Source: Xiphophorus maculatus
Taxonomy: Eukaryota > Chordata > Actinopteri > Cyprinodontiformes > Poeciliidae
Direction: 5' to 3'
DNA length: 64,000 nt
Assembly (NCBI RefSeq): GCF_002775205.1
Contig: NC_036460.1
Location: forward strand, 21,718,751-21,782,750
Shown here: positions 19,201 to 48,800 of the stretch, in pieces
Numbering within the stretch: position 1 is the first letter of the stretch
Layout of the letters: every line of letters begins with the position of its first letter
The notes under the pieces: generated by a model
What the model saw: the letters and a program-made list of their open reading frames with translations, nothing else
Databases searched by the model: none
Told to the model about the DNA's origin: nothing
Position numbers and translations under genes: made by a program

Positions 19201-19412
19201 TTCCAGAGAGTTTAATGTACTTCATACCTGTAAAAGTTGTTGGCAGACAAGGTTTCATCAAAGGTTTTCAGAGCACATTTTTCCCGCCAGAGCTTGACTT
19301 TGACTTGGTACACATGACCAAATCTACCTTCGGCCACCTTAATCCATTCAGCCTCAAAGTCATCCCTCTTGAAGTCCCTGAATTGTCCAGGTGATGTGTC
19401 ACAGCAATCCAT
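10506..19412 (-). CDS. ankk1: ANKK1, ankyrin repeat and (pseudo)kinase domain protein (9 coding exons)
   Basis: Coding exons in transcript order: 19412-19228, 18782-18500, 18423-18272, 17922-17873, 16664-16509, 15910-15786, 15204-15171, 13279-13039, 11553-10506. Phases agree and the total is 2,274 nt, giving 757 aa; human ANKK1 is 765 aa. Architecture is an N-terminal RIP-type kinase domain (about residues 17-275), a linker (276-360) and 12 ankyrin repeats to the C-terminus. Signature stretches such as YGVC, AMNFLHS, KPPLLHL, IPPE and FAAQNGDDRT match the human protein as I recall it. ANKK1 belongs to the RIPK4 family and its cellular role is poorly known. The catalytic-loop Asp is replaced by Asn. 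The exon 5 donor is unusual (CGCAG/GTTCCA), but the resulting frame is right. It lies downstream of ttc12 on the same strand, as in other vertebrates, with the ZP/mucin gene between. Confidence 0.95.
13417..13990. mobile_element. hAT-like miniature element, split by a nested LINE fragment
   Basis: It begins CAGGTTTCAAACTCAAGTCC and ends GGAGTTTAACACCCTTG, typical of a fish hAT-like non-autonomous family. With the nested insertion removed it is about 220 bases and is the reverse complement of the neighbouring copy at 14001-14223. It lies in the ankk1 intron between exons 7 and 8. Confidence 0.75.
13527..13863 (-). mobile_element. LINE 3' fragment with (AAG)n tail nested in the hAT-like element
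   Basis: A 14-base direct repeat (TCCTTGTGTAGATC at 13513-13526 and 13864-13877) exactly brackets this segment. It has a CTT run at its left end, so the element lies on the minus strand with an AAG tail. The rest is AT-rich and shows no ORF. The flanking duplication makes the insertion clear; the family is unknown. Confidence 0.75.
14001..14223. mobile_element. hAT-like miniature element, inverted partner of the preceding copy
   Basis: It runs from CAGGGATCTCAAACTCCAGT to GTTTGAGACCCCTG. The ends are imperfect inverted repeats, and similar 8-9-mers (TGCTACCGG, TGCTACAGG) flank it, consistent with the 8-base duplications of hAT elements. Confidence 0.75.
15342..15448. repeat. Three consecutive perfect hairpins in an ankk1 intron
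   Basis: Stem 1 is 15342-15352 with 15363-15373 (11 bp). Stem 2 is 15377-15386 with 15392-15401 (10 bp). Stem 3 is 15415-15427 with 15436-15448 (13 bp, 8-base loop). They are spaced a few bases apart between ankk1 exons 7 and 6. Confidence 0.8.
15786..19412 (-). other. ankk1: ankk1 kinase-domain exons 1-6, key catalytic residues altered
   Basis: The Gly-rich loop is EGRFGHVYQ (residues 29-36). The ATP-binding Lys is in CALK (K49). The alpha-C region reads KDVLSNIAKLKF, where the usual Glu is absent or displaced to Asp66. The catalytic loop reads HLNLKTSN (139-146), with Asn141 (codon AAC, 18545-18547) where active kinases and human ANKK1 have Asp; Lys143 and Asn146 remain. DFG is intact (159-161), IPPE replaces APE, and the C-lobe CWDKNPQMRP is typical. 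ATP binding may be kept, but phosphotransfer is doubtful. This is inferred from motifs only. Confidence 0.85.
18991..19020. repeat. 13-bp perfect hairpin in ankk1 intron 1
   Basis: AGATGTTAAACTT pairs with AAGTTTAACATCT across a 4-base loop TGAA. An outer imperfect stem (CAGTTTGGGCT with AGCTCAAACTG) precedes it. Confidence 0.75.
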
Positions 19413-22124
19413 GAGTACAAGGATCCTCAGGCCACCGTTAGAGTCCAGTCCTAAACTGAAACAGCTTTTATCCTACAGATCCATCTCACCCAGCCGATTT
19501 GCGGGAACTTGTTACTCATTCAGGTAAACAGGAAAATTCACAGCATACACATAGAGTTCTGCCCTTTGTGGGCGGAGCTGAAGTGCAGAGCTGGTTTGTG
19601 TTATGTTGGTCAACCAGTTTTCCAACATTCATGGTTTCTTACGGAACAACTCTGTAATCTAAGCAATGCAATCTAAACTTACAATTGCTCCACTTCAATG
19701 GTAAGGTAACATAAATTTTTAATTTAACAACAGAGTATCAATTATTCTGGCTGAAATTGTACCTACGCACATAGTGATTGAAGTCTATATTTACAGTGAC
19801 TTAACACCCTAATAAACCGTCTATCTATATCATTGTAGTTTAACAAGACATTTATTTAATCCCAAATTTATTTAATCAGTGGAAGGACTCAGTGCTGTCT
19901 TTGAAATCGGGTTGATGACCATTGGAAATAGCGAAATGTTCCCAGACAGCTGACAGTAATCCAAGCTTATTTCAGGCTCGTCTCAAAATATACTGTATAT
20001 GTTACTAAGATCTCCGCTTGTTTTCAAATCAAACTTAGAGACTTTATCCGTCTTCCTACCATAACCTACATATAACACTGGGACATGAGTGACATCTGTC
20101 TTTCTGTGTAAACTGTTCAGCAGGACTTTATTCTCCCAGCTTCCTGAACCCTGTGTTTTCCATTATCCTATAACAGCTTTGTTTGTGGACATCTTTTCGC
20201 AGATAGCTTTCTGTATTCTCTTCACGAATTGAACAATAACCTCAAAGCACAGCTGTTTTCTTTCAGATTAGAGAAACTATCAAAGCTTTCCCCAATTGGT
20301 GTGCATTCAAAGTGACTCTGTTGCTATCACACAAGGTTGGGTAAGGAGAGGAAGCTGTTGTATCGTTTGTATCATTTTTTAAAAAACATTTAATGACACA
20401 ATTATTGATTACTTTTTAATTATGCATATTGACAATGAAATGATTCTGGGTACTTATTATTAAGAGTGTGTAAAATTTTTCACATTAAATGTAAAGTCTA
20501 ATTACTTAAAAGCACAGTTGGGCAATTTGCTTTAAGCATCTGAGACAGAAAGACAAAATGTTAGCATTTGTGCCTTAAGGACTTTTACATTTACTGCCTC
20601 AAACTGTTTGGTTGTTTTTCAATCTTAATGATTTTTTGTTTATTCTCTTAAGAAACTTGCTGTGCAACTACGCAAGGCCTAAATTCTTTTATGGTAAAAA
20701 AACAAAAAAGCAAATAAAAAAATTATTAAATTAAGCTTTTCTGAAAGCAGAGAGTAAGTGTGTTGCCCTAAAGAAAAGAGACTGCAATGAGTGACTCTCA
20801 TTTGAGCTTTTATTGCATATCATTTACCACATTATCATATGCAGCTTTGCAACAATATTAACTTTGTTCAACTTTTCCATTTTTTACACATGTAATGACA
20901 CACAAAACTCAGTGTGTTTAATTGAGATTTTATGTGTCGGGCCAACAGAAAGCCTTGAGGTAAACATGTGAAAAGTCTATTGTCTGGTTGTGTTTTGCCA
21001 TGTTGTAGGTTGGTTGATGAAGGAGGACCCAAATGCAGAGAAACAATGGCAGCTTATAGGTGAGGAATGTTTTTATGCAAAAATCCTAGGAAAACTTACA
21101 AAAAAACAGCAGCAAAATTAGTACATGAATTGCCAATGTTATAACATGAGGAACCAGCAAGAAGCGTGAGAAGGGGTTAAATACTGTGAGGGTGAATAAC
21201 AAAAGACCTGGGCTGATTAGCTAACACCTCACACCTGCATGGAGATTGCAGGTGTGAAGGGAGAGAGAGGGAGAAAGTGCACAGGGGGCGAGAGAGAGTA
21301 CACAGGTGACTAGGATGTGAATGCAACAGTAAAGCAAAACTAAAAATAGGAACCATCATTAAACTAGAATAGCTTAGAACAGACACAAGAACTGAAGTAG
21401 AATCACTAAACAAAGGACAGAAGGAAAAACAGAAATAAGACCTATCTTACCAAAATTAACTAAGGAACCCAATAATAATGGAACTTGAATGAAATATCAA
21501 AACACAAAAACAGCTCAAGATCCTCACGTTTAAGATTGTTTCCATGATTGATGGTTAATCTCACTTGCATCTCAAGTCTTTTGTATTTTTCTGCTCTGCA
21601 TGTATTAGGTCACTCTATCTTCCCATCTACTCTCACCAGATTTCTTTGACCCTACTGAAGAAATGCATGGGGATGGTGCGTTCAAGGTCATGGGGAAAGT
21701 TAGCTTAATCTCTCATTCTCATTTTCAGGTCTGCTACACATTTCCTGCATCTTCTGTATTGCTTGTGGCAACTTGCAAGTAGAGTGTCTTATGGCTTTCT
21801 TTCAACAATGGCAGTCTCATAAAGACTAGACTTATGGCGTACATGTGGTTGCTTTGTCTACAGCTTTTCCCAATTTTCAAATATAGATTTCAGTGGATTG
21901 CTAAACAATTACAGAATTACCTCTTGGCTGCTTTGCTCAGTAATGCTCTACATGTCCTGTCTGTTAATTTGGGTGGATGGTGAGTTCTGCATTATGGATG
22001 CATTATTGCATCATTATTGATGCAATAAACTTAAATGTATTTTTATTTTGCATTTTTTTGTGTGTTAGACAATTTTGGAAGTAGTGAATATAAGAAATGT
22101 TTCGCATATATTTCTATGGATGCA

Positions 22125-26486: not shown

Positions 26487-26833
26487 TCATTGTGTATTCT
26501 GTCCTACGCCGGGCAGTGAGACCGGCCGCTTCTGCTCTGCACCTAATATGATTGACTGCCCCTCTGTCTGTTGACTAATGTAATTGTTTGCAGCTATTTT
26601 GGGGGGGGGGACTTGATCAGCATAATTGGCAGCAGTTCCTCCTTGGTCACGGTGAGATAAGTCGCCTCCCGGGCGTAGGCAGCCGCAACAGGCTTGCGAC
26701 GGAGCTGCAGAGTGGAGAAGCCAGATGGCCTGCCGATGGTAGGCTAGCCACACCAGCAGCAGCAACAAAGAGATGAGGGAGAAGCCAATCACCAGGCTGA
26801 CAAAGACCAAAACCAGATCCAGTTGTGATGGAT
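26487..26833 (-). other. Transmembrane and cytoplasmic-tail exon of the ZP/mucin gene
   Basis: The exon starts D-P-S-Q-L-D and immediately encodes a strongly hydrophobic segment (LVLVFVSLVIGFSLISLLLL), then a basic stop-transfer residue context (AYHRQ). A tail of about 80 residues follows, with a Cys cluster (CCGC) that could be palmitoylated, ending GVGQNTQ before TGA. The reading frame is intact. Confidence 0.75.
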
Positions 26834-29800
26834 CTGAAAAATCCCACAGAAAAATAAACAAAAAGTATTTCTTGGTGAGCTCATAAAGGGCCAAATACAC
26901 AGTATATATTTCGACACACAGAGCCACTTAACAATATGGCTCCATTCTTAACACTCTTGTTGACAAATGGCATAGTCATCTCTCATTTCCCGTCCTGGAG
27001 CATCTCCAGTCTATGCTGTGTTATCTCAGATTGATTGTCTTTTTTGTTGTTGTTGTTTATTGGTTTTTGGGTTTTTTGCACTCAGCTAATAATTACCTAT
27101 CTCCAGGGGGAAGGTTGAATATTTTGCTTGTTTCAACACCGGCCCAAAAGATATGCGATTTCGAAGATTGACCGTGACAGTGTCTGCACCTTCAGAAGGA
27201 AACACACTCCGCTGCTGAAGGCATTGCTGCAGAAAGAATAAAAAAACATATATAAGAGTAGGAGATATGTTAGAATAGCTGGAACCCACGAAGAAGGAAG
27301 GTTTTATTGACTGCCAATTACAGAAGAAATGCAATAACAATCTATGTAAATATTTATCAGTGTATATTTTAAAACATTTCAGTAGGGTATTTGTTGAAGC
27401 CTCTATTTGATAGACAGCATGGAAAAAAGAGTTCACCTTTCAAGGTGGTGCTTTCTTTTAATCATGTTGTGAAATTATAAATAGAAGGGTTATTTTATTA
27501 AAAAGAATCAATAGGAACACACAATTTTAAAGAAACAATGTAAAAATAAAAAAGAATATTTCTTTGTTCACACCTGCAGGTTGTTGGTTTTGCATCATTT
27601 CCCAAATAACCTTCACCTCAAGTTTGCTGATGATCAGACTTTCTGTAGAAAAGAAAGTGGTACAGTTCCAGCAACTGCAAGTTCTCATATGTTATGTCTG
27701 TGTATACCATATGTGGAAGGACCCACCTTCCACCTCTACTAGTACTGTAAAATGTGTTATTTTTGCTTTTTGAGATATTTTACAATCTTTCATGTTGTCA
27801 GACAGAAGCAGTTTAAATATTAACTTGATTCTAGCATTCTGCCTGGACTTTTGCTTAATCACAAAGAATGTAGTTAATCAAAGATTAAGCAATTATCTTT
27901 TTACGCAGTCCCAGGCTGGTGTGGATAGATATTTCACTTTAATAAACAAAAGATCAAGTTATCTTTGTTTCATAAAATTTGTTTTATGATGTGAACATAA
28001 ACCGCTGCATAAGGTAGTAAGAAACAAAAATGCACACATTTAAAACTGACTGCTAAACATGAAAAAAAAAACACGCAGGGCTCTTGGCGTGACACTGTCA
28101 ATGCAACAAATGAATTTTTTTTTTCAAAGTGACATGTATAAAAGTGCAGTGAGGATGTTTGTGTCTGAGAAATGCAAGTGATCTATTCACACAGAAAATG
28201 ACAGAAATAGAAATAGATATTGAACAAAAACTGAAATTAACAACAAGATTGAAAGAATCTTGCCAGTTTCTTGCCAGTTTCTCTCTGTATAATTTCTAAG
28301 AATGTATTGTTTATTTTACTCTGTTCATTTTAGAAATGTATCTCTGACTCGTTGTGTCTTACCTTTTTTGAGGTGAGGTAAGACTTTGGGACTTTATGAA
28401 AAGAATAAAATCTGGCATTTTTTGGCACAGCCTGAGTAGGATCACAGGCCTGAGGCCAGAATGCGAACAGAGTCTGCTTCGGGAATGACCTTTTTTTGGT
28501 TTAAATTATATACTCATTTGTACTCTTAGGATTTGTACCCTCTGCACAATACTCTGTTGTACAAGTCAAAAATCTAACTTAATTTGTTTACTTGTTTTCC
28601 ACAAATAAGTTTTTGATCTTCTTATGATTTCAGAACCAAAAATAGAAAGTCTCTAAATTTTTGCTTTATCAGGTCCATCTTCACACAGCTGTGCTCACAT
28701 ATCAGTTCTTACAGCACTACGCAGCTAAATATTCCAGTAGACGATAGGCTTATTCACATGTATAAAATTGTCCATGTTATCTCTATCAATCTGTTTCTTG
28801 TTTATTTATCTCAGGGGGACTTAAAGGAAAACAGGTTTAGGACAGAAACACACCTCTCTCTCTCTCTACTTCTCACACATAATTCTGGGGTATCCCAAAT
28901 CATTAAAAATGCACAGAGCATTTCATCTATCTACACATTTTGTGCTCCATCTTTCATTGAATGACACAAGAGGAAACTTGGCACTGCTCTACTTGAGGAA
29001 GATACTAAACCCCAGAGAGAGCAGTCCACCTTTTTTCCCTCTTGAGAAAAGGAGCTGACTAATGTTTGCTGCTTCACACTAGACTGCAACTCAGCTAACA
29101 TCATGCTTAAAGACAATAATGGAGCCAGATCATCTGCAAAAAAAGTAAAATGAGACCGTCAGGATCCCGGAACAGATTCCATCCCCTCAGAACTATCCCT
29201 TGAGACTCTGTTGATAAATAACCCACCAAGATTGGAGATAAATGGCAAAGTCCAATCCACACGGGTAAAAAACTCAGCTATGTACACGACTTTAGATAAC
29301 CAAGTGGATGGAAAAATCCCATAGAAAATTATCTTAAAGGGGGACTTTGGCTTGCGTGGATGTTCAGACATGCACATGTAGAATTATGTGTATGCAAATC
29401 TGTGTATTCAGATTTAATGCATCTGGAAATTTTGTGTGCGTTTTTAAGAATGTCTAAATGTTTAAAAGAGTGAAAGTGATTTAAACAGCTATTCAAACCA
29501 GAAAAATAAATAACTAACCATCAAATTCACACTGAGACCATAGCAGTATTCAAGACTTGGCTGTTCTGAGATCTTTAGAAGTGCTCTTTAAAAATAGACC
29601 TCTGAATGAGTCTCCAGAGTTTTTCACCCGGCTTCACATTCAGGCTGAAAGACGTGCTTGTCAGATGATTCACAGTTTTCTATTAAATCAGAGTCACTGC
29701 AACAACACTGAGTTATAGAAGTTGGTATCAAAGCATCCGCATCTTTTGCTACTGATAAAAAAAAGTGTTTCTGTTACTTTGCAAAGCTCTCTTTCATCTT

Positions 29801-31117
29801 AATGTCATGTTTTAAACTGAGTCCTTGGCTGTCAGTCAGAACGTTAACAGACTCTGCTAAACGTTTTGAAAATCAGCTTCCAGAGAATTGCTATGACAAG
29901 ATTTCTTTATACTAACTACATATTTTATTTCATTTTTGATTTACAAAAAGCAATTCAACTTTGCGTATTTTAGCACATATCAACCCACCTTTGTCTCCCC
30001 TCCTTTCTCTCTTTCTTATTTATTCCCCAAAGCCAGTTCATTCTCCATCTGTCATTCTCCACGCTTCATAGCGCCACACTTTAGCCTGTTACATTTAAAT
30101 CACTCTCAGCTCATTCTTTCATTCCCCTACATTCATTGCACTGCAGTGCTCTGTGAACCCACTGCAATCTTACCCTTTCACAGTCAGAGTGGTTCCTCAG
30201 ACAGACACTGAGATCACAGTGTAGGTACACCACTGAGTAATTAATCATTTGGAAGAGACTGATGGTAAAACTGGCACTGGTTGACAAGGTGCTGGGCAGC
30301 AGCATGATCCTCTCCTGGTCTGAGAGAGTAGCAGAAATGGATTTTATAAACTTGGTTGAGACGTTCCTCTTGAAATCAAACGAAGGCTCTGTCGTTTCCA
30401 GAAGCCAAAGCCGCACTGATTAGCAGACATGAAGGCGGCAATAGAGTGCAAAAAATGATCAATATTTAATATTGGTGAGAGGCTTAATAGAAACAAATCA
30501 TATCAGGCAAAGGTCAGCGTTAGAGTTATAATGCTTTGACATTGGTATAATCACATTTACTAAGGATACTAATAGTAATACTGGAAAATATTATTGAATC
30601 TTATACTTGAGTTGGGTTTCTTACAATCCAACTCAAGTTCTTACAATCCAAGAGTTACTCTTAACCCTTAAGAGTAACTTAAGGGTTACTCTTAAGTACT
30701 GATTAAGTGGCTTAATCAGTACTTAAGAGTAACCCTAAAATGAAAGATCAAAATTACTTTTCCAAGAGAAAATTTTGTAAACCTGTTGTTTTCTTGTTTA
30801 AACAAATATGAACCCTTTGTTTATTGGCACGTTGACACACTAGTTTGTGCATTTAAACGACAATGGGTCTGAGTCTCCAGGATAGCAATAAATTTCTATC
30901 TCTTTTTCCATGCTGGCACGAGACAACATCAAGCTGCTCATGTTTATTAAAAATATTTAGCTATTAAAATATGTTGTTGATGTTTTCTTAAGTGATTTAC
31001 CTTATGAAATATCACTTCTTTTGTAAATAAGCAAAATTTCTCGTGTTCTAATAACCAACAAAAATCAAACCACCTATGTCTAGTTCATATATATACATAC
31101 AGTATGTACTGTAAAAT

Positions 31118-31177
<60 letters not shown>

Positions 31178-34100
31178 ATTTTTGCCTAAAATGTTGCAGT
31201 TTATCTTTACTTTCAATGAGCTTTTCAGGTCACAGAAAAACCCAACACAAAATCTTTTCATTTGCCATTTTTGGCTCATTCCAGTTTACCTGAAAAAAAA
31301 GCAGCAGGTAGGGTTGTTGAAGTCCAGCTGACGTGTTGGTGACAGGCAACAGACGGTGACGCCAAGGTTTATCTGACTGTTGTTTGTCTTCAGATTGATA
31401 ATCACTCTGAGGTTCCCTCGGGTTGGCACCACATCACCAGGCTCCACACTTGTTCCCATCTTCAGCCTCATTTCTGCGGTGTAGTTTCCACTGCCACAGA
31501 TGTCATCTGAAATTTCTGTCACACCAGTAGTGGATCAATATTTCATTATTGTTCGCAATTTGTAATGGGATTTATTGTCTATTTTAAGTGATATTTATGT
31601 GAAATCTTAAAAACAATTTCATTTATTCTCACCTTTTTCATAATTATATCTTGCCATATTCCCTTTCAAACAGCAAAATTTGACTTTACAGATAAAGCAT
31701 CATGCAATCCATCACCATAGACGCCCTTATAGGACTAATGGTAATCTTGAAGTGTATGAATTTAAAATTTGTTGCTGCTGTAATCACAAAAAAGCCTTTT
31801 TGCAGAAAGAAACAACCAACTGCCTGCTGGCAGCCTTCTACATAAACCACAGACTCTGGTACTTTAACGCAAATTGCGATGTCATTAAGCTAACATGCTA
31901 ACACTAATAATATTTAGCAGTTGTTTTTTCTTCATCGTCATAATTAAACAATGACCAGAGAGACAACAACTCGTGAGAAATAAGAACAAAATGTCATAAT
32001 GTCCAATGAATCCTTATAAAAATGACTGTTTCGATTTCTGAGATGAATGGCAAGAATTATTACACTTTTATACAGTGTTAACATTTTTTGAGATGCACTA
32101 GTACATGGCAGATGCTGAAATACTTTGATGTACACAATTTCACAGCACGGTTTCTACTCTCTTATATAATGTTTGTTGTGAAGCTCCAGCAGAGTTTCCT
32201 GTGGCGTGCCAGTTATTTCAACACAGAAATTACCTGTCTTATTGACTGCATTCTTGTGTTTGCCCTTGAGAGATGTACCAGAAGATAAAAGAATAAGTGA
32301 GCAGAGAATAAATAAAAGATGGATAATGCATTGTCATTAGGATTGTGTCAGCAGGAAGTTTGTTTCAGACAAAAAAAGAGTCGCTGTTTGATAAACAAAT
32401 GAAAACAATTGATGCTGAAATCATTAAAAACTAAATGCAGAATCCATATAAGATTATCTACACCATTTTGCACCAGTATTTACTTTGTAATTCCCTTTAA
32501 ATAGATTTTATTTATTATTTGTAGTTGGTTGTATCAATTAGTCACTGTACGGTTGCGAGAGGAGTGGGAACATTTAAGGTAAATGCATTTACTTTGTCAC
32601 TTTGCATTCAGTGGTTAAAATGATTTATGATAGTAATTTATAGAATAGTCAACAGCTCAGCTCTGTTCCAAATGTTTACCAAGCACTCAGTGCAGTCTGA
32701 CCAAAATCCATTTCAAAAGTTCAAATATTTCAACCCCTCAAGGTAAACCTAGGGAGGATCCACAGAGAGCTGTTTTATTTTGTTTCATTTTTTTACTTTC
32801 ACAGAGATGCTCACAGAGGAAATGAAAACATCTGTGATGGACTTGTGTCTGTATTCAGAGATATTTGATACAATAACGGCAGAATTTTCCACCTGCTGAA
32901 TTTAGCAGCAGTTTGTTAAAATCATTGAAAAAATAAATAAAACTACAGCCAAATTTTGCATTTTTAGGTGAAGGTTCAATAAAAAAAAAAAAATTAACTA
33001 AAAATGTGTTTAATTGAGTAGTTCAATTTCCATCCATCCATCCATTTTCTTCCGCTTTATCCGGGGTCGGGTCGCGGGGGTGGCATTTTCAGAAGGGAGG
33101 CCCAGACTTCCCTCTCCCCAGCCACTTGTTCCAACTCCTCAGGGGGAATCCCAAGGCGTTCCCAGGCCAGCCGAGAGACATAGTCCCTCCCCTGTCCTGG
33201 GTCTTCCCCGGGGCCTCCTCCCGGTGGGCTTCCCCAGAACACCTCACCAGGGAGGCGTCCAGGAGGCATCCTGACCAGATGCCCGAGCCACCTCAACTGT
33301 CTCCTCTCGACGTGAAGGAGCAGCGGCTCTACTCTGAGTCCCTTCCGGACTGAGCTTCTCACCCTATCTCTAAGGGAGAGCCCAGACACCCTACGGAGAA
33401 AACCCATTTCGGCCGCTTGTATCCGCAATCTTGTTCTTTCGGTCATGATCCAAAGCTCATGACCATAGATGAGGGTGGAAACGTAGATTGACCGCGAAAT
33501 CAAGAGCTTCGCTTTTTGACTCAGCTCTCTCTTCACCACGACAGACCGGTATAGCGCCCACTTCACAGCAGATGCTGCACCAATCCGCCTGTCGATCTCC
33601 CGCTCCCTTCTTTCCTCATTCGTGAACAAGATCCCGAGATACTTGAACTCTTCCACTTGGGGCAGGACACCCCCCCGACCCAGAGAAAGCACTCTACCCT
33701 TTTCCGGCTCAAGACCACGGCCTCGGATTTGGAGGCACTGATCCTCATCCCGGCCGCTTTACACTCGGCTGCGAACCGCTCCAGCGAGAGCTGCAGATCA
33801 CGACCTGATGAAGCCAATAGGACCACATCATCCGCAAAAAGCAGAGATGCTATCCTAAGGCCACCAAAACGGATCCCCTCAACACCTTGGCTGCGCCTAG
33901 AAATTCTGTCCATGAAATTAATGAACAGAATTGGTGACAAAGGACAGCCCTGGCGGAGTCCAACTCTTATCGGAAACTAGCCCGACTTACTGCCGACAAT
34001 GCAGACCAGACTCTGACACCGGTCATCCTTTGATACAGCCCGTATCAAAGGGCCCAGTACCCCATACTCCCGGAGGACCCCCCACAGGACTCCCCAAGGG

Positions 34101-37100
34101 ACATGGTCGAACGCCTTCTCCAAGTCCACAAAACACATGTAGACCGGTTGGGCAAACTCCCATTTTCAATTTAAAAATTGTAAATATATCAACGACTTAT
34201 TTCTCTTAATCTTAGTAATTTTGGCTTACAGTTAAAGAGAATCCAGAATGTTTTTTTTTTATGCAGGAATATTGTGTTATAGCCATATCATGGGGAAGAG
34301 TGCTTGCTTGACAGTTCTCCTGACTCACTGACTCCCTCCACAAGCATGGTAAACCACAAAACAAGCCCATAGCTAATGGACCTTTGTATCCAGGCACATT
34401 CATTGAACATTTAGTAGTTGGTAAAATCATGACATGAAAAGATGAAAACGCAACACAGTTACCTCAGCCTTAAAACTATTGTGACAGAATTAATCTGGTC
34501 AGTGTGGTCCTCATTCCAAGTAAAAGTAAATGTTGCATTGGATTTGGAAAGTAAAGTCTCAGACTATGGAGAAATAATGGAGATGAAGTGATGGGACGCT
34601 ATGCCATCTGCTGACATTGGTCCACTGCTGTACAGTGCATCAAAAATACTTTTTGAGAAGCCTTTTTTTGTAAATAGAATTTTGTTCAATTTTATATTTG
34701 AGCTATGTGAGAAACATTTTTAAATGAGCAATTATTAATAATCAAAATAAAGATGAACATGTAAAATGTGTTACTGTGCACATTTTAATTCACACCTTGC
34801 TTTCAAAATTACTATAATAAGTAATTTTTTGGACAATACTGTAATTTCTACAGATGCAGCTGTAAATGAAATTCAATGAATCAGTGGGCTGCGTTAGAAT
34901 ATCTGGCATACTTATTATAAAATGCCCCTCTACCTTTCTTTAATCTGTTACCAGGTTAATAATAGAAATGATAGAAGACGTAATAACATTACCCAGAGAC
35001 ATACTGATGAGGTGATGTCCTTCTCCTTTGGTTCAGCCTTGGGAGCTCTGATTTAGTCTGCGGCTCTGACACTAACAGCCTGCTCCCAGACTCTGGGCTT
35101 GCCGTCTCGTCCTTAGCATGGGCACGCAGTGACCTACTGACATTTTGTTCTGCCAGCATCCTGGCTCTGCCTGCTCTTCTGTCTAATTGTGTTTTGGTGT
35201 TTCCTTCAACAGGCAGCGTCTTCTCAGTGGACTTTATTGTGGTTTCCACAGCAGCTGCTCCAGACTCAGACAGTGTGCCCTCTGTTGCAATAACTCCAAA
35301 GGTATTCTGAAAGCATCTTTGTGTTGTTTTCGTCACAAACCGAGTCCACTGAGGTGTTTTTTTGTTTTCCAAATGAACAGTTTCATCTGATGTACTTTTG
35401 GCCTTTTTTGACACTGTGTCATCACTGGTGTAGTCCTGTTCCCATTTACTGGTGACTGATAAATGCAACACTTTTTTGATTTTCCACTTGATTTTCCAGG
35501 TACAGAGCGATGAAAGCTCCAGTTGCGTCCGGACTTGGTTTTATTAGCATTTTGGGCCCGGAAATTATTTTTTTCTGGGAATCAAGTTTTGAAGATTTCC
35601 TTTGTAGGATCAATCACGACTGCCTCAGTAGTTTCATCAGACTTTGTACAGCCATTGCTGCCACAACTGATTTTGTTAATAAACTCTGTGGGTGAGATCT
35701 CTGCATGAGGTACAAAATCTGTCACATGTCCAAAGACTGCGTGGCTTATTGAAGTTCTTTTAGGCAACATGTGCTTCTTATGTTTTCTACCCAATCTTGT
35801 GAGTGCTCTCTATAAATATTCACAGGTAGAGGAAATGATGTAATCCCTTAAAGTGATAAATAGCTCATTTGTTCAGAAGCTGCAGGTGTTTGGACATATG
35901 ACTCTTTGGCTCTGTGGGCCATCTCTGAAAAGTCAGACTCTGCTATATTAATAACATGTGATAATGCAGTCATAGAAAGCAGGGCATGCTGGCCTTGTTC
36001 GGCAGCTCGTACAAGAATCTCCTCCTCTGGCTGCTCCTGCACACTATGTGTTTCCATTGTTTTTATTCTCGAAGCAGCGGGGGTGAGCTTGTCAAAAGTG
36101 TGAGCTATGGGAAGCTCTCTCTGAGTCAAAGGATTGGTATGAGCGTAGGGCCGAGATCTGTGCTCAGCTGCCTTCTGAGTTGACTTCTTACTGTCTGGCA
36201 GAGTCCCACTCGTGGCCAGCAGAGATTTAAAACCTCTGAACTCAGCGGGAGTCTCTGTGAGAGAGACAAAGTCAGCGGTTTTATTTGCGTTTATATGAAA
36301 TTGAGAAATAATGTGTCTTGCTTGGTCAAAAGTCTGGTGTGTTATTTTGTGAATTGCACGGTCAGTGCTTGAATTCATATTTGTAATCATGTCTGAGTTG
36401 TTACTCTCACTCTGCTGTGACAGAGACTGGCTGTCGTGCCTTATATTCGTCTTTGCCAACTCAACATCAAACAATGAGTTAGGCTCATCATCAGATTGTA
36501 TTTTAGGCCTTTCGGGAAGATTATCTGTCTGGAAAATCGTGGTGGTGCCAACTCGATCAATTGTGTCAGCATAATTTGTGTCGTGCCCAAATTTCCCATT
36601 TGTAGCCATTACAGTGTAAGGCATGGCTTTTTCTAACTCAAAGCGATGATGATGCTTTGCAGTCATAATTATATTGTTTGCTTCATCTTTGCCACCAGCA
36701 GTAGAAAGGTCATTCTGTTTAGTCTCATTCTTAGTCTGAAGGGAAGTGGAGTTGAATTCATCAGTGTCATTAGCAACATGTTTACTCCTAACAGTCGTAT
36801 GTTGATCCCCTGTGACTCCATTTGAATGTTTCACAACGGAGGTCATCATGAACATAGCATTCCCTTTCTTTTTTCTTTGACTTGTCTCACCAGTGGCCGC
36901 TAACAAGGACTCTCTGCTTTTGGATCCAGGGACAAAGTGGGCCAGCTGTGAACTAGTTAGCTTCTGCAATCTGTAGGTTACAGTCAACCTGTCACCACTT
37001 AACGTCCTCAGTTTCATCATCGGTGACATGCTTTCGGGAGAAAAACGATTGATTCCTGTTGCAGGGATCACTGACGACGTCCGTGCCTGTGGAAATCTTT

Positions 37101-40100
37101 GCTTGTTTTCCACAGCGGGAGTATGTAAAGTGTCTGGATGCGATGCCTGCTCTGACACCCTGGAGAGACATGTCTGGCCTGGAGTTATGTTAGGGCATGA
37201 GGAGGAGGAGTGACTCCTCTGAGTAGCAGACTGCCCTCGGTGAGGCTGAAATGGGCCCACAGAGATGCGGGGTTTAAATGACAAGACTGTGACTGTGGGT
37301 GTCTTTGTAGATGAATCATCATACCTCTGCTGGTGTATGGATGGCGTAGTATATTCTGCCTGCCCTTGCTCATTCGCTGTATGTAAAACTGGTTCGGCCC
37401 TCAGAACAGAATAGTTCAATTTATGCTTATGATCTGTGTTGCTCTGAATAATTGATATATTGAGAGAACTGCTCACAGTAAAGTGGGACTTGGCTCTCTG
37501 AAATCGGGTTGTGAGTGAAGGCTGTTTAGCTGTGTTAGCAGCACTCCTGCTTGGGGAAATAAGTGGCGTAAACATAGAAATAAATCCAGATATTTTTGAC
37601 ACTGCAGCAGCAGGAAATTTAACCTCAAACTCTTGAGAACTTGTTTCCTTCAGTGGTAACATAATGTCTTCTTTTGGAAGCTACTCTTCCCTTAGATCTG
37701 GTGCCTGGGATCTTACAGATGGGTGTGGCAGCTGGAAATTGCTTGTCACCTCAAAAGAAAATGACTTATTTGTTAGGTCTCTTATTTGTGAAGCATTTTC
37801 ACCCAGATGAATACCCTTGTGCTCAGAGCCGTCCAACTCTTTAATCAAACCATGATAGGAAGACAGCTTTTCAACAATGCTCTCTTTGTCTCCGTTAAGT
37901 TCTTTCCAATTTGTTGCCAGTTCAGGGGGAACATTTGTCACATCCTCCTTCCCAATATCCTTGTTAAATTTTCTGTCCTCCCCACTTCCAGCCTTTTTCC
38001 TCCAAAAATTGTCTCTGCTTTCCAGCAGTATCCAGGGTTGAATTCTGCATATTTATTTTAGTCACACCTTCTCTTTTGGCGCCTCTCTCATCGTTGACTT
38101 CACCATGTTGTGTATTTTTGTCATGTCTCAGAAGTACATGCTCTTCTCTGCTTGTCTTGGTGATGAACTCTTTCATTTCTCCACCCTCTCTGTATGTGGT
38201 TTGGTTTATCTCTGCTGCTTGTTTTTCAATTTCAGGATCATCTAATCTTAATAATTCCTACCTTTTGTTTTCCAGGATTTCATCATCTTTGAGAAACATT
38301 TTTGTAATTTCTCTGCTGTGGTTGCTGTTGGACTGAAGTGTGTCTTTGTCCTTGTTTTCAGTAACTACACTCAAAACGCTTTCCTGCTCATCTCCAAGTG
38401 TCAGATTGTGAATGTTGTGTAAGTCTATTAATTTGCTATCAGGACTGTTGCCTTCAGAATTCCTCCCCTCAGTGATTTTTGATTGGGCTTCTTTCTGTTT
38501 CTTATTGAAAGACATACTTCTTAGTCCAGTTAATGCCGACTGAGAGACGTCAAAGTCAAAGACCTTCAAGCTAACTTTTCTTGTAGCAAAAGTTGAAGTT
38601 TGTACTCTGGTCATAGCTGTCGCACTCACTGTTGTTTGGAGATTAGCAGGAGACTGTTTATGAGTGACAGTTGCAAGCCTAATTGTTAAATCCTTCGGTA
38701 ACAAAGTCAATATCGACTGTTTGGTCTGAGATGTAGGTTTAGGTTTTGTTTGGCTGTTTGATACAGAGATGAAAGTCCCATCTTTTCCTGTCAGAAAACA
38801 AGACTTGAGATTTTTGACTGTGGAAACAGTTGGCCTGCAAAGGGTGAAGGGTCTTATTGCAGCAAGAGCTTCAATCGAGTTCATTCTTGTAGGATGTGAA
38901 GCAGTGCCATGAGCGTGACCTTTTGGGAGAGTACTGTTAAAACTGCTGAGGGGAGCAATGAAAGGTGCATTGCTCACTGGCCCAGTGCTGATGTCCTGAT
39001 TTTTCAAGCTTGTTGAGAGACTGTGGGAAGCCTTTCCTTCCTCTGAGTGAAAGGCATTGGATTTGGCTGAGGCTCCCACATGGAGACATTTTTGTTAAAT
39101 ATCTCTTGATGTCCATGTGTCACTGGTTTCTCACCGGTGTAAGAAGGCTTTGATGAGGGATATTGCGCTATGGATGTTAACTTTGGACTTGCTGTGGAAA
39201 AAGTTTTGCTGGGATAGGTACGACTTGGAGGTAGTGTTGTGAATTTGTGTTTTTCTGTTGATAGTTCAGCAGCAATATGAGAGAAAAAAGAAACAGTTTT
39301 TCTCTCAGTCTTATTATGGGTAAAAGGAAGAGATGTGCGGTTGTAATTTATTGCATTTTTGAAATTGTTGCTCTCTTTGGCCTGTTTGCTTTCCCCAGTT
39401 GAAGAAGAATGGAAACTGTTTAATGAAGTCAAACTAAGAGAACCTAAAGAAATATAAGGTGAAGCAGTAGGGCTGGCTGCAAATTTCTCACTGGACATTG
39501 CTTTTCAATCTTTCAGACAGGTCAAACACAAGTCGGTCACATCATTTCCTTTCATTGAATTTTTTGTTGGATCAGCCTGGAGGATGAATTGCATTGTACT
39601 AGACAGATCCACATTTTCTCCTAGGTTTGTTATGCTCTTCTCTTGAGGTCGTAAATCATCACTGTCATTAAGCAACTCCGTCAGGTTATCAATTACATGA
39701 GGACGAGATGCAGATGGGATTGGAAGTAAAAGTCCTGGATCAGCAGATGTGGGAATAACAGAGTTGGCATTTCTGTGAATCCTGATTGCATACGGCACAG
39801 AAAACCAAGGAGGGGCTTTGACTGCCATGGCAGACAAATGGACATGTTGCTCAAAGGTATCATTCAACACCCGTGCAGCATGTGTGGAAGACGAAACACT
39901 CTTTGCATAATCAGACTTCAGAGGGACTTTTGATTCTGAATGGAAAGCTGTCGATGATTGTAGAGAGTTTTGCACATTACTGGAGAGAATATTTCCCATG
40001 CTTTGTAAAGTAGTAGCTAACGATGTGGTTGGCATCCCCTCATTAGTTGGCTTTAGTTTTGTGTCAAACACGTTTGCTTTTGGAAACTCAGCAGTCGGCT

Positions 40101-41268
40101 CCTCCTCGGTGCCTCGGTGTGTCGTCTGTGAAGGTACTGCTTCTGTGCCACGAACAATTGTGATTGTTTTCTCCAAAAGCCAATACTTTGTGACAGCAGT
40201 GCCTTTTGTTTGTTCTGGGAGGTAACTTTGGAAATCTTCTCGCTCTCCCCCAACTACTGAAAAATAACAAAACATGTCAATCAAATTTTATCCTCAAAGG
40301 ATGTTTTTTTTTTACTACTCGTAGTAGGAATAGTAGTAATAGCAGTATCAAATAAAAATGAAACCCAAATAAAAGAAAGAGCTGATGCAGGCAAAAACAT
40401 ATTATGAAATACTGTATGTTATCAAAATAGGTGAGCTATATGCAAACATGGGTAGCAGAGGGGGAATATCTTCAGTGTTGGTTTACTACATTTAATCATA
40501 CAAATTCCCAGTGGCAATCACTTGCACTTTATGCATTTTTAATCACTGAGCACATGAATTTAATGGTTCCTACAACCTCCATGCATTGGAGCTGTAAATA
40601 AAATAAAATAAAACACTGTGAAACATGAATATAATGATTTCCTTAAAATGACACATTTGTTAATATTTGACGTTACATTTTATTGGTTTACATTCAAGGG
40701 CCTTGACGACATATTAAATCATTTAAATCCTAGCGTGGCTGAAATTAATTTAATGAACTGGTGACAGATACTAGATGATGTGTGACTGATTAGCTAATTA
40801 TTAAATGTCTGGTGATTTATCTATTAATTGTAATGCTAGCAGTAGGCGGTTTTGTGATTACATTACATTTTGTTGTTACACATTACACTGTAAATTAGAT
40901 GAAAGTCAATCTCTACATTAATACATAAATGCATAAATTTTAACATTGTTGACATTTATTTCTGTTCCTGATGTTTACAAAGTTACAGTGTGATAGTTTC
41001 TTAATAACTTTATATTGCCATTTTTAGGAAGAGACAAGTGAAAATAATAAATCATAGGTCCGTTTTTAACCTAAGAACTAGATCTGCCAAATAAAACAGT
41101 CAACAACCATCAACAAACCTGCAACACCAACCAACTTACTATTTAACAAAGGCTAAAAAAATCATTTGGAAGGTCATTTTGTTCTATTTTCACCCCAAAT
41201 TAATTCCAAAAATATTACACACCTGTAAGTAGGAAAACAGCAAGTGGAAAGGAGTTAAACTTCCACAT
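26487..41268 (-). CDS. Mucin-like, ZP-domain, single-pass membrane protein gene, apparently damaged
   Basis: I do not recognise this as a named gene. Supported exons are: 41268-41223 (signal peptide), about 40256-34993 (Ser/Thr-rich), 31506-31290 and 30415-30174 (ZP-C), 27226-27097 (end of ZP) and 26833-26487 (transmembrane segment, tail, TGA stop). If intact it would encode about 2,000 residues. The order signal peptide, long O-glycosylation-type spacer, ZP module, membrane helix and short tail is that of ZP polymer-forming or cell-surface proteins. Exon 1 joins exon 2 cleanly (phase 1, giving Val), and 27226-27097 joins 26833-26487 cleanly (phase 1, giving Asp). The large exon carries several stops and frameshifts, and the 31506/30415 junction is out of phase, so the locus may be a pseudogene or contain sequence errors. 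ZP-N was not located. It sits between ttc12 and ankk1, which are adjacent in human. Confidence 0.7.
27097..27226 (-). other. Exon for the end of the ZP module and hydrophobic patch
   Basis: This 130-nt exon has clean splice sites (CTGCAG before it, ATAG/GTAATT after it). It begins QCLQQRSV, at the place where ZP proteins usually have a polybasic cleavage site; here only Gln-Gln-Arg is present. It then has NLRNRISFGPVLK, resembling the external hydrophobic patch that controls ZP polymerisation. The phase-1 end matches the next exon. Confidence 0.7.
30606..30735. repeat. Cluster of adjacent palindromes
   Basis: Three stems lie in a row. CTTGAGTTGG pairs with CCAACTCAAG. AGTTACTCTTA pairs with TAAGAGTAACT. 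A perfect 25-base stem (30683-30707 with 30711-30735) has a 3-base loop TGG. It lies in an intron of the ZP/mucin gene. No terminal duplications or known repeat motifs were seen. Confidence 0.85.
31126..31173. repeat. (TA)n microsatellite
   Basis: About 24 TA units, flanked by GTGTG on the left and CACA on the right, so the whole is palindromic. Intronic. Confidence 0.9.
32815..32895 (-). other. Weak candidate exon of the ZP/mucin gene
   Basis: An 81-nt segment lies between an acceptor (TTCAG) and a GTGAGC donor. It is open in two frames, one reading QVENSAVIVSNISEYRHKS. It has no Cys and no recognisable motif, and its frame does not chain with the ZP-C exon. Confidence 0.2.
33030..34164 (-). 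mobile_element. 5'-truncated non-LTR retrotransposon (LINE), RT C-terminal part
   Basis: On the minus strand the element reads part of a reverse transcriptase. It shows PILFINFMDRISRRSQG and the catalytic-motif context LLFADDVVLL, then VLPQVEEFKYLGILF and the familiar fish-LINE C-terminus (RRIGAASAVKWALYRS, RLAWERLGIPPEELE), ending in an (ATGG)n tail. The frame shifts once near 33.69 kb at a G run (C run on the plus strand), and the 5' end is truncated, so it is dead. The 8-base sequence TTCAATTT flanks both sides (33022-33029 and 34165-34172), a probable target-site duplication. It sits in a ZP/mucin intron. The clade is not assigned. Confidence 0.9.
34463..34563 (-). other. Candidate extra exon of the ZP/mucin gene
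   Basis: A 101-nt segment has a strong acceptor (pyrimidine-rich tract ending CCATAG) and a GTAACT donor. One frame reads SNATFTFTWNEDHTDQINSV, then TIVLRL, with alternating hydrophobic residues like a beta-strand. That frame does not follow from the phase-2 end of the preceding exon. It may be part of ZP-N or of a spacer. A second, weaker candidate lies at 32895-32815. Confidence 0.35.
34993..40256 (-). pseudogene. Giant Ser/Thr-rich mucin-like exon with stops and frameshifts
   Basis: The minus strand is almost continuously open over 5.3 kb, but in changing frames. The longest uninterrupted piece spans 37662-35848 (about 600 codons). Composition is rich in Ser, Thr, Pro, Asn and His, with almost no Cys and many NxS/T sites, as in mucin-like stalks. 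In-frame stops occur at 39505-39507 (TGA), 38258-38260 (TAG), 37681-37683 (TAG), 35848-35850 (TAA) and 35582-35584 (TGA). Frame changes are needed near 39089-39093, 37994-37998 and 35472-35477, each at a run of five or six A/T, and another near 35.81 kb. The acceptor at 40256 and the donor at 34993 (GG then GTAATG) look good. No introns of plausible size would remove the lesions. Either recent decay or assembly error would fit; the separate in-frame stops favour decay. Confidence 0.65.
41223..41268 (-). other. Signal-peptide exon of the ZP/mucin gene
   Basis: ATG at 41268 opens MWKFNSFPLAVFLLT, a short hydrophobic signal peptide with a basic residue near its start. A GT donor follows (ACAG then GTGTGT). 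The phase-1 end joins the acceptor before 40256 to give V-V-G-G-E-R-E-D in the frame of the next exon, which supports both the start codon and the splice. Confidence 0.75.
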
Positions 41269-45800: not shown

Positions 45801-48800
45801 TCATTATTCATGAAAAGAGATGTGTGTTAAGTCTTGACAATTCCGAATATTAAAGAGACATGCACTCAGAAAGTAGTAATAGCTCAAAATTACAGATTAG
45901 TTTTATGTTTAGTTTCTTCAGCCAGAGCTCCATCGTCACTTTGAGACCATTCCAAACTTTAATAACATTAGCTTTCAGAATGTAAATCATATTTGGTGAT
46001 CTGTGAGGTGAGGTGAGGTGTTACCTGGGCTCAGATCGACATAGTTTGCTGAGAGCAATGGCTGCATTTTGCTGCACAGCTGTCTTCTTAGGCTCCCCCG
46101 CAGCGAGCCGCAGTAGAAGCAGCACAATATCAGTACCCAGCAGGTGGGTGGCAACTCCTTCCAGCTCAAAGCAATGGGCCAAGCACAAAGCTGCATTTCC
46201 TGAAATCACCTCATCGCTGTTGGAACGCAGCAAACGACGTAAATTGGAGAGTTCTGCGCAAAATAACAGGTGGAAACCAAATCAGGAAAACATACAATGA
46301 TGAAAGTCACAACCATTCATAAACAGATGCAGGGAAATCAGGGGAAACCTTTCCTTTTTTAGGTGAGCTAGAATGTGCTTTTTTTTCTTTTAGAATTTCT
46401 TTAAACTGGTTTCCATGTCAGAAAATTTATTGCATTTTCTCAGTACTTGGCTTCTACATTTTTGCCTTGGGTCAAATGTTTAGGGACTCTTTCAAGCTTC
46501 CTGGAACAGTTTGCTGGAATTTTTGCCCAATCATGAGAACATAACTAATTCATTTGGGAGTATTCTCAGGTAAATTTTTCGTTTGAAAGATCTAGCTAAA
46601 CCCAAGCTTCAATTTTCAGACTGATGTCTTCAAATTTTGTTTCAATATTTTCGCACATTATTCTTTTCTGTCTTCTGTCTAAGTTTTTGTTGTTGTTCTG
46701 AATGTAATACACACATTATTCACAAACAAACAATCTCCGGGTCACAGAACCTTTCTTCTTATTGAACCTTAAAATGGCTGGACATTTTTCCATGCTCTTT
46801 ACAAATTTGGAAACTTCAAGCAAATAGAAATTTTACCCAAGGGTGAATTAGACTCATGGATGTCCCCAGTTTTTTTTCTGATATCTGGTCAGATTTCTTT
46901 TGATTTTTCTTTAATGAAACACAACAAAGCAGTACGTCTGAGATGTTACGTGATGATATTACTGTTGCATTTCCAGTTATCTTCAATATGATTGAATTAA
47001 CTGATCAGATGCTTGCAACTTTCTGCTCTCCCAAATTGTTTAAAGTCATAGGAATCTTAGAGTATGTAAACTTTTGAGAATTAAAAATCTCTCTTGCTTT
47101 GTTTTTTTAATTAATAAAACTTATTGTTTGAATTCTAAAAAACCTAAAACTGGAAACTGTTTTAGATTTCCAGTTTTAATCAGACCGATATTTAATCAGT
47201 CTGATTAAATATCAGACCGATATTTAATCGGTCTGATATTTAATCGGTCTGATTAAATATCACACCAAGAAAAAAAATAGATTGTGTGCATTTTCATACA
47301 TTTCATGTAAAAATCTGATTTCAGCTCTATAACTGAACTCACACGTTAATTAACAAGTGTTTATTTCAGTTCTGACTCAGAGATCAACCCTTTAGTACTG
47401 CAGTGTTCACACTAATGAAAGAGCCTATTAATGCTAACACGTCAATCATTCCTCACTTTTATCAGACTTCACCAGCTCTTCCCTTGCCGCGTCGCTGACT
47501 GCAGTGCAGAGCGTCAATGTCTTCATGGCAAATTTGGTGGCAGTCTGACCTTTTCCCTTCATAAACAAACACACACACAAATTAATAAGCAAGCAGGATG
47601 TTTTCTATACTGACTCTAGATAAAAAGTCAGATGTCATGAACAACAAAATGAATTAAATTATTTTTCATCTTACATATATCAAACAGCTATTATATAAAT
47701 GCTAATGATGACAGTTCTTCAATATATGTTATTGTTTAGCTATTTCTCTGTAAATCGATTTAACTAGTTTTTTGTCTTTTTATTCTAATTTGACCTTCAG
47801 TGTTATATTCATATTAGGTACCACTTGAAAAAAAAAGAGTCAAAGCTGTCTGTGGGGAGATTGCATAATTTTCTGCATCTTTTGGCAATCAAATGAACAC
47901 AAATGAGAGAGAGGTAGAGTACAGGTTCTGTGTGCGCAGCTCTTTCATGAGTAGAATAAGGGAAGCGTGACTAAGCCATTTCTTTTTCACCATCTTCTTG
48001 TTTTATTTATTCAAGGTTCTTTTTCTGAACCTAGATAGTTTTTCCCATAATAGGTAGCAAAACATCACATGTAACTTTCACCCAAACTTCTTGTCTCCCG
48101 TCTCGCGACTTCTTCTTGGGAAACTACAGTAAAGGGGGCAAGAGCGCCACCTCTTGACATCCCCAAATAGAACAACTGTAATAGGCAGAATTTACATACA
48201 AGATCAATTAATATATCAGTCTAGGTTGATATCATGACAACCATTTAGTCTCAGGAAGAATTTTGGACACTTTTGATTGTCTCTCTTCTCTACTCGAGTT
48301 TTTAAGTATAAAAAGTAGCATATCAAATGTATCACTGATGCAGTCCTTGAGAGCCGTTGCATAATAACGGCTCTCAAGTACTGGACTTGTTGATCCCTGA
48401 ACTAGGCACTGTTTTCCATTCTAATGTTAAACCCCTGCTGTCTGCTAGTACATCAGTAAACAAAATGTAAGCAACATAGAAAATGATGTGAAAGTCTGAA
48501 GTGAAGTTCATTTTCTTTAAGTCAGCTGTGTCTTTGTTATACTTGTACAAACAGTATAACAGAAATCACAGATTTCTAGAATATGTGTCTAAGTGTATGT
48601 GTTAAAAATGTGTTATCTCAAGATTTGAAAGTCTTATTAAGCTATTCCAAGTAATTAAAAAAAACAAACTTAACTGTCTATACAGTTAAATACCTTCAGC
48701 AGCCAGCATATGGTGTGAATGACTTTCCTTCGAACAGCATGCTGAACAGCTTCAGAGGACTGAGGGAGGACAGTGCTCAACACACCCATGGCTCTCTGGA

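Follow-up and report, generated by a model that had tools for sequence, protein, structure and literature searches.

A decayed orthologue of an old bony-vertebrate ZP-C gene lies between ttc12 and ankk1 in the platyfish Xiphophorus maculatus

The stretch analyzed here, hereafter the window, comprises 64,000 nucleotides of the X. maculatus contig NC_036460.1 (positions 21,718,751 to 21,782,750). It holds a gene at 41268..26487 on the minus strand, flanked by ttc12 and ankk1 with all three genes on the same strand, as an earlier note made from the DNA letters alone had proposed. The anatomy described in that note was likewise recovered: a signal peptide (MWKFNSFPLAVFLLT), a Ser/Thr-rich stalk, the CCLSPT and VYLHC motifs, the strand RISFGPVL and a transmembrane segment are all present. 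That the gene works was not confirmed; stops, frameshifts, a missing splice acceptor and a C-terminal frame break make the window copy a pseudogene. We show that it is a decayed orthologue, apparently present as a single copy, of an old gene of bony vertebrates located between TTC12 and ANKK1. Judged by its sequence, the gene is without a working product in the platyfish.

The ZP-C motifs CCLSPT and VYLHC fall in a match to Pfam PF00100 (E=2.5e-7), obtained with a query of joined pieces, two of which later proved non-exonic. The 5.27 kb stalk exon is not a chance reading, because its longest open stretch runs for 610 codons, whereas 500 order-1 Markov simulations never exceeded 219, and because its amino acids are identical to those of Poecilia mexicana P0041 at 1471/1727 aligned codons (85.2%) and of P. 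reticulata P0040 at 1494/1728 (86.5%). Frameshift-aware alignment places the identical five in-frame stops and four frameshifts in this exon against both Poecilia proteins (Table 1). Five stops fit the five to seven expected without constraint from 100-125 missense changes, our own estimate for the window branch. The AG is missing where homologues pass from stalk to ZP-C, the expected place being taken from proteins, not from Poecilia DNA, and from homologue proteins exon 4 appears truncated at its 5' end and out of frame. The final codons are also out of frame; the P. mexicana match stops at 26658 and the tail to 26487 is read-through. In X. hellerii, the model P0018, which matches the window exons at 93-97%, begins only in exon 4 and has the same C-terminal read-through. 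An intact duplicate elsewhere in the genome was considered and rejected: a search of the 704 Mb genome turned up no second copy, as all four matches of P0003, searched with its ZP-C and transmembrane part only, were the window's own exons. The orthologous place, the disabling changes and the lack of an intact copy elsewhere, as far as that query reaches, characterize a unitary pseudogene.

Table 1. Features of the window gene and its neighbours, in window positions
Feature	Position	Strand	Basis
Exon 1: signal peptide MWKFNSFPLAVFLLT with its start codon, followed by a GT donor	41223..41268	-	P. mexicana P0041 has same start
Exon 2: Ser/Thr-rich stalk, broken frame	34994..40256	-	alignment to two Poecilia orthologues; splice-site reading
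In-frame stop TGA	39505..39507	-	frameshift-aware alignment to Poecilia
Frameshift, approximate place	39041..39042	-	frameshift-aware alignment to Poecilia
In-frame stop TAG	38258..38260	-	frameshift-aware alignment to Poecilia
Frameshift, approximate place	37996..37996	-	frameshift-aware alignment to Poecilia
In-frame stop TAG	37681..37683	-	frameshift-aware alignment to Poecilia
In-frame stop TAA	35848..35850	-	frameshift-aware alignment to Poecilia
Frameshift, approximate place	35786..35787	-	frameshift-aware alignment to Poecilia
In-frame stop TGA	35582..35584	-	frameshift-aware alignment to Poecilia
Frameshift, approximate place	35475..35476	-	frameshift-aware alignment to Poecilia
Exon 3: ZP-C first half (DDICGSGNYTAEMRL...VCCLSPT); expected acceptor without AG	31290..31524	-	
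Exon 4: ZP-C second half (SFTISLFQMINYSVVYLHCDLSVC); 5' end shortened relative to homologues, frame not continuous with exon 3	30174..30319	-	
Exon 5: final ZP-C cysteine and EHP-like strand RISFGPVL (EHP, external hydrophobic patch)	27097..27226	-	
Exon 6: transmembrane segment, then a short tail whose frame breaks near 26660	26487..26833	-	
ttc12 neighbour, extent of matched exons	46024..62256	-	tblastn, TTC12 part of P0055
ankk1 neighbour, kinase and ankyrin exons	10527..19481	-	exon matches

Two further candidate exons (about 28,455-28,367 and 27,640-27,576), which had been part of the queries for the Pfam scan and the first protein search, were rejected, as homologues join exon 4 straight to exon 5. 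The intron before ZP-C carries a retroelement fragment (33057-34165, minus strand, with an RVT_1 match within 33566-33976), and the intron after exon 3 a pure TA microsatellite of 24 copies (31126-31173). The ankyrin open frame of ankk1 (10509-11669) is free of stops. Beyond ttc12, 38.6 kb to the right of the window, another ZP gene (L009:5752-6018, minus strand) has a ZP-C exon (PF00100) and an exon that looks like ZP-N by eye; this gene may be related to the window gene through an old tandem arrangement. Close to it lies an apolipoprotein A1/A4/E-like open frame (L009:2522-3394, plus strand; PF01442, E=1.6e-16, below the curated cut-off).

Three protein searches, each confined to a set length range, gave 92 distinct protein matches, which we tallied from the listings with species named by cluster representatives: 51 from fish, 33 from birds, two from crocodilians, one from a lizard, five unnamed and none from mammals. 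Full-length models of about 920-2,280 amino acids occur in teleosts, birds and crocodilians; the sturgeon and lizard models are shorter or fused. Among the fused models, TTC12 repeats precede ZP-C in Scleropages P0055, Albula P0051, emu P0077 and Phrynosoma P0091, and ZP-C precedes the kinase and ankyrin repeats in Channa striata P0037 and Mergus P0087. The TTC12 and ANKK1 sides of the locus are thus both evidenced, from protein models, in fish and birds, and the TTC12 side in the lizard. These comparisons indicate that the family is old and not restricted to fish. The earlier note had offered two origins, a fish-lineage gene lost in mammals or a lineage-specific insertion. Of the first, the absence of mammals among the 92 matches stands and the restriction to fish falls with the bird, crocodilian and lizard matches; the second fails because orthologues in birds and the lizard have these neighbours too. 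Over ZP-C and the remaining C-terminal part, the zebrafish protein is 60% identical to that of sea bass and 63% to that of salmon, and in the stalk 19% and 24%, respectively. In the Gambusia affinis model P0001, about 18 residues of ZP-C are missing and the start lies late in the stalk, and the Gambusia gene may be damaged as well. Relatives are labelled "uromodulin-like 1", "mucin-5AC-like" and otherwise in databases, though the domains of those families are absent. A synteny study of DRD2 gives ANKK1 and TTC12 as neighbours and, in its available text, does not mention a ZP-C gene (PMC5900934). Our literature search, whose coverage left out most subscription journals, found nothing on a ZP-C gene between TTC12 and ANKK1.

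The description of the product as a ZP protein was right for ZP-C; none of the full-length relatives scanned showed the ZP-N half of the module. PF00100 was the sole Pfam domain in all six full-length non-fused relatives (above the curated cut-off in four), and Pfam found ZP-N in none of the six. Across the genome, the ZP-N model gave 19 matches, none on the contig of the window. ZP-N typically has four cysteines, according to the accessible portion of PMC7665627; the P0050 stalk has none and the zebrafish stalk has one. The EHP is conserved, with SFGP invariant in 19 of 19 short relatives, and forms strand 169-177 in our structure model of the ZP-C piece. None of the 79 relatives parsed by script (the other 13 of the 92 could not be parsed) has a furin-type R-X-[KR]-R site between the YLHC motif and the EHP. 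The closest solved sequence to this ZP-C is that of betaglycan and the top fold match by Foldseek is uromodulin; our table of fold alignments re-examines Foldseek's own list, and families outside that list are not thereby excluded. From CGSGNY to the EHP, nine cysteines were counted in zebrafish, sea bass and sturgeon and ten in one bird and the alligator (P0041 could not be parsed); the odd count of nine may point to a dimer linked by a disulphide.

Stalk composition in six proteins is 22-24% serine plus threonine and 5-11% proline, with 10-29 N-glycosylation motifs. Pfam found no domain in the stalk of the full-length relatives scanned, SEA included. An adjacent basic pair lies at most 40 residues before ZP-C in 46 of 56 parsed relatives. 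Percomorph stalks have a four-cysteine cluster (P0031 residues 1802-1863; likewise P0032 and P0033). The sea bass cysteine cluster terminates 194 residues ahead of ZP-C. Sauropsid stalks (P0056 from about residue 674, P0059 and P0091) have stretches that can be aligned, at 36% for the alligator and 27% for the lizard, and these may hold a small extra domain.

The best explanation overall, which we consider probable, is that the platyfish carries a decayed orthologue of a gene whose intact product is a type I membrane glycoprotein with a locked ZP-C. From its anatomy, the intact protein would hold a stalk of about 650-2,050 residues, probably disordered and glycosylated, over the cell as a glycan coat, with the single ZP-C adjoining the membrane. 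In betaglycan and other ZP structures, the EHP returns to ZP-C as its strand G, and polymerization is believed to be controlled by removing or exchanging this strand (available text of PMC3695229). Here the EHP would stay attached, completing the ZP-C sandwich as strand G, and ZP-C would stay locked on the membrane without polymerizing, like that of betaglycan and endoglin. With no canonical cleavage site and no recognizable ZP-N, the protein has no evident means to polymerize; given also its long glycan-rich stalk, a role as tether or co-receptor likely fits best. Next to the membrane, ZP-C would then serve for binding, either by docking into an apical matrix made of other ZP proteins or by capturing a ligand. 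The basic pair shortly before ZP-C in many relatives may permit shedding of the stalk.

Several results weigh against parts of this interpretation. Relative-rate tests found no excess of amino-acid change on the window branch over Poecilia: with Ameca as outgroup, unique changes numbered 50 in the window and 59 in P. reticulata, and 52 and 63 in the comparison with P. mexicana; with Kryptolebias, the counts were 40 and 60, and 42 and 69, respectively. The stalk evidently evolves fast even where its frame is kept. The absence of mammals comes from protein similarity searches only. The absence of ZP-N is not airtight: the genome-wide ZP-N search overlooked the ZP-N-like exon of the gene beyond ttc12, of 46 long-stalk models only 14 show fewer than four cysteines in the stalk and 15 have at least four within 120 residues, and a piece of the gene beyond ttc12 used as a control gave no Pfam ZP-N match. 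The exon-wise ZP-C search of the genome gave 60 matches, the window's own exons not among them. Exon-wise domain searches therefore miss short or diverged exons, as both the window's ZP-C exons and the neighbouring ZP-N-like exon went undetected. A minimal R-X-X-R precedes the EHP in three of the 79 parsed relatives. The ZP-C piece was modelled with middling confidence (predicted local distance difference test, pLDDT, 69; predicted template modelling score, pTM, 0.54), and full-length ZP3 (3nk4, 3nk3), in whose structures the EHP is presumably present, aligns to this model only as far as residues 140-145. The full-length model is poor throughout (pLDDT 33), and as a result disorder of the stalk is weakly supported. 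The serine and threonine content of the stalk is below that of classical mucins, the window stalk exon has no tandem repeats, and zebrafish, Dallia, the two crocodilians and six birds lack the basic pair. Finally, LET-653 of Caenorhabditis elegans needs cleavage of its ZPc for full function (available text of PMC7665627), which speaks against a ZP-C that is both locked and functional.

The intact protein might instead be a structural part of an apical matrix, of the egg coat, ear or an epithelium, with ZP-C attaching to other ZP proteins in the manner of the LET-653 ZPc, a proposal that we regard as rather doubtful. A stalk with ZP-C suits a matrix tether, and LET-653 localizes and works via its ZPc, which still localizes when isolated and uncleaved; in the same excerpted source, however, rescue by the uncleaved ZPc is only partial (PMC7665627). 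A growth-factor co-receptor resembling betaglycan, whose ZP-C would bind a ligand of the TGF-beta family via the FG loop and strand G, appears unlikely. The closest solved sequence and the EHP kept without a canonical furin site speak for it, and in betaglycan the FG loop beside the EHP binds TGF-beta (PMC3695229, available text). Fold similarity, however, does not prove function, and in place of an N-terminal ligand-binding half only the stalk is recognized.

That the platyfish gene is intact, its breaks being assembly or sequencing errors, is very improbable. Exon 3 does terminate in a run of eight T, and the relatives X. hellerii P0018 and Gambusia P0001 are catalogued as proteins, not pseudogenes. 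However, a single gene would have to collect five stops, a missing acceptor and six frame breaks, and the C-terminal break is found again in the X. hellerii model. As a control, which was not frameshift-aware, stops were found in three of 12 ankk1 exon matches and one of 10 ttc12 exon matches; by our reading these stops fall outside exons, near match ends, upstream of a Met that probably starts the protein, or where an ankyrin alignment is misplaced. There is next to no chance that the gene is uromodulin-like 1 (UMODL1, olfactorin), as several databases label it: many models of 192-431 amino acids carry the name, a ZP-C is common to both and uromodulin is the best fold match, whereas UMODL1 combines EMI, WAP, FNIII, EGF, SEA and ZP domains, maps to human chromosome 21 and is matched by a separate zebrafish orthologue (PMC8874799, in its available text), none of its EMI, WAP, FNIII, EGF and SEA domains occurs in the six full-length non-fused relatives, and the locus here is ttc12-ankk1. 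The UMODL1 identity was rejected on those extra domains and the locus, no one-to-one counterpart in a named ZP family at another conserved locus emerged, and the first impression that no named family fits was borne out.

Betaglycan (TGFBR3) and endoglin possess ZP-N and N-terminal orphan domains. The proteins described here share with them a ZP-C adjoining the membrane and the EHP as strand G, and differ in that only a long stalk, without a Pfam domain, was found ahead of it. With uromodulin, GP2 and the egg-coat ZP proteins they share the ZP-C fold and an EHP-like motif, but they lack a recognizable ZP-N and a canonical furin site, hence any basis for the usual filament. Transmembrane mucins, commonly compared by their SEA domain, serine and threonine content and tandem repeats, have a similar Ser/Thr-rich ectodomain and membrane anchor; here Pfam finds no SEA, serine and threonine are lower, the window stalk exon has no tandem repeats and ZP-C takes the juxtamembrane place. 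LET-653 likewise has a glycosylated linker and a ZPc able to act alone, but it has PAN domains and ZPn, is cleaved and has no membrane anchor (PMC7665627, available text). The first standalone ZP-C proteins were reported in nematodes by Weadick in 2020 (PMC7456536). According to the available text, T01D1.8, F46G11.6 and CUTL-19 have ZP-C without ZP-N, with signal peptides in most and cleavage sites in few, and T01D1.8 and F46G11.6 tend to short C-terminal tails, where in the vertebrate proteins ZP-C stands between a long stalk and a transmembrane segment; the likeness drawn here is one of architecture. In the portions available, a 2022 study of vertebrates mentions only the nematode standalone ZP-C proteins (PMC9154058) and a 2026 review merely cites Weadick 2020 (PMC13361971). 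The vertebrate proteins place an apparently standalone ZP-C on a long stalk; within these partly available sources, printed accounts of a standalone ZP-C concern nematodes only.

On balance, and with modest confidence, we favour an unrecognized ancient vertebrate family of membrane-tethered glycoproteins with a standalone, uncleaved ZP-C, lost in mammals and decayed again in platyfish and swordtails, and a role of ZP-C independent of ZP-N in vertebrates as in worms. The gene sits inside the much-studied TTC12-ANKK1-DRD2 block under misleading database names. Its decay in the platyfish would provide a natural knockout beside full-length Poecilia orthologues, and a vertebrate ZP-C on a membrane anchor without a recognizable ZP-N would allow a direct test of what ZP-C does without polymerization.
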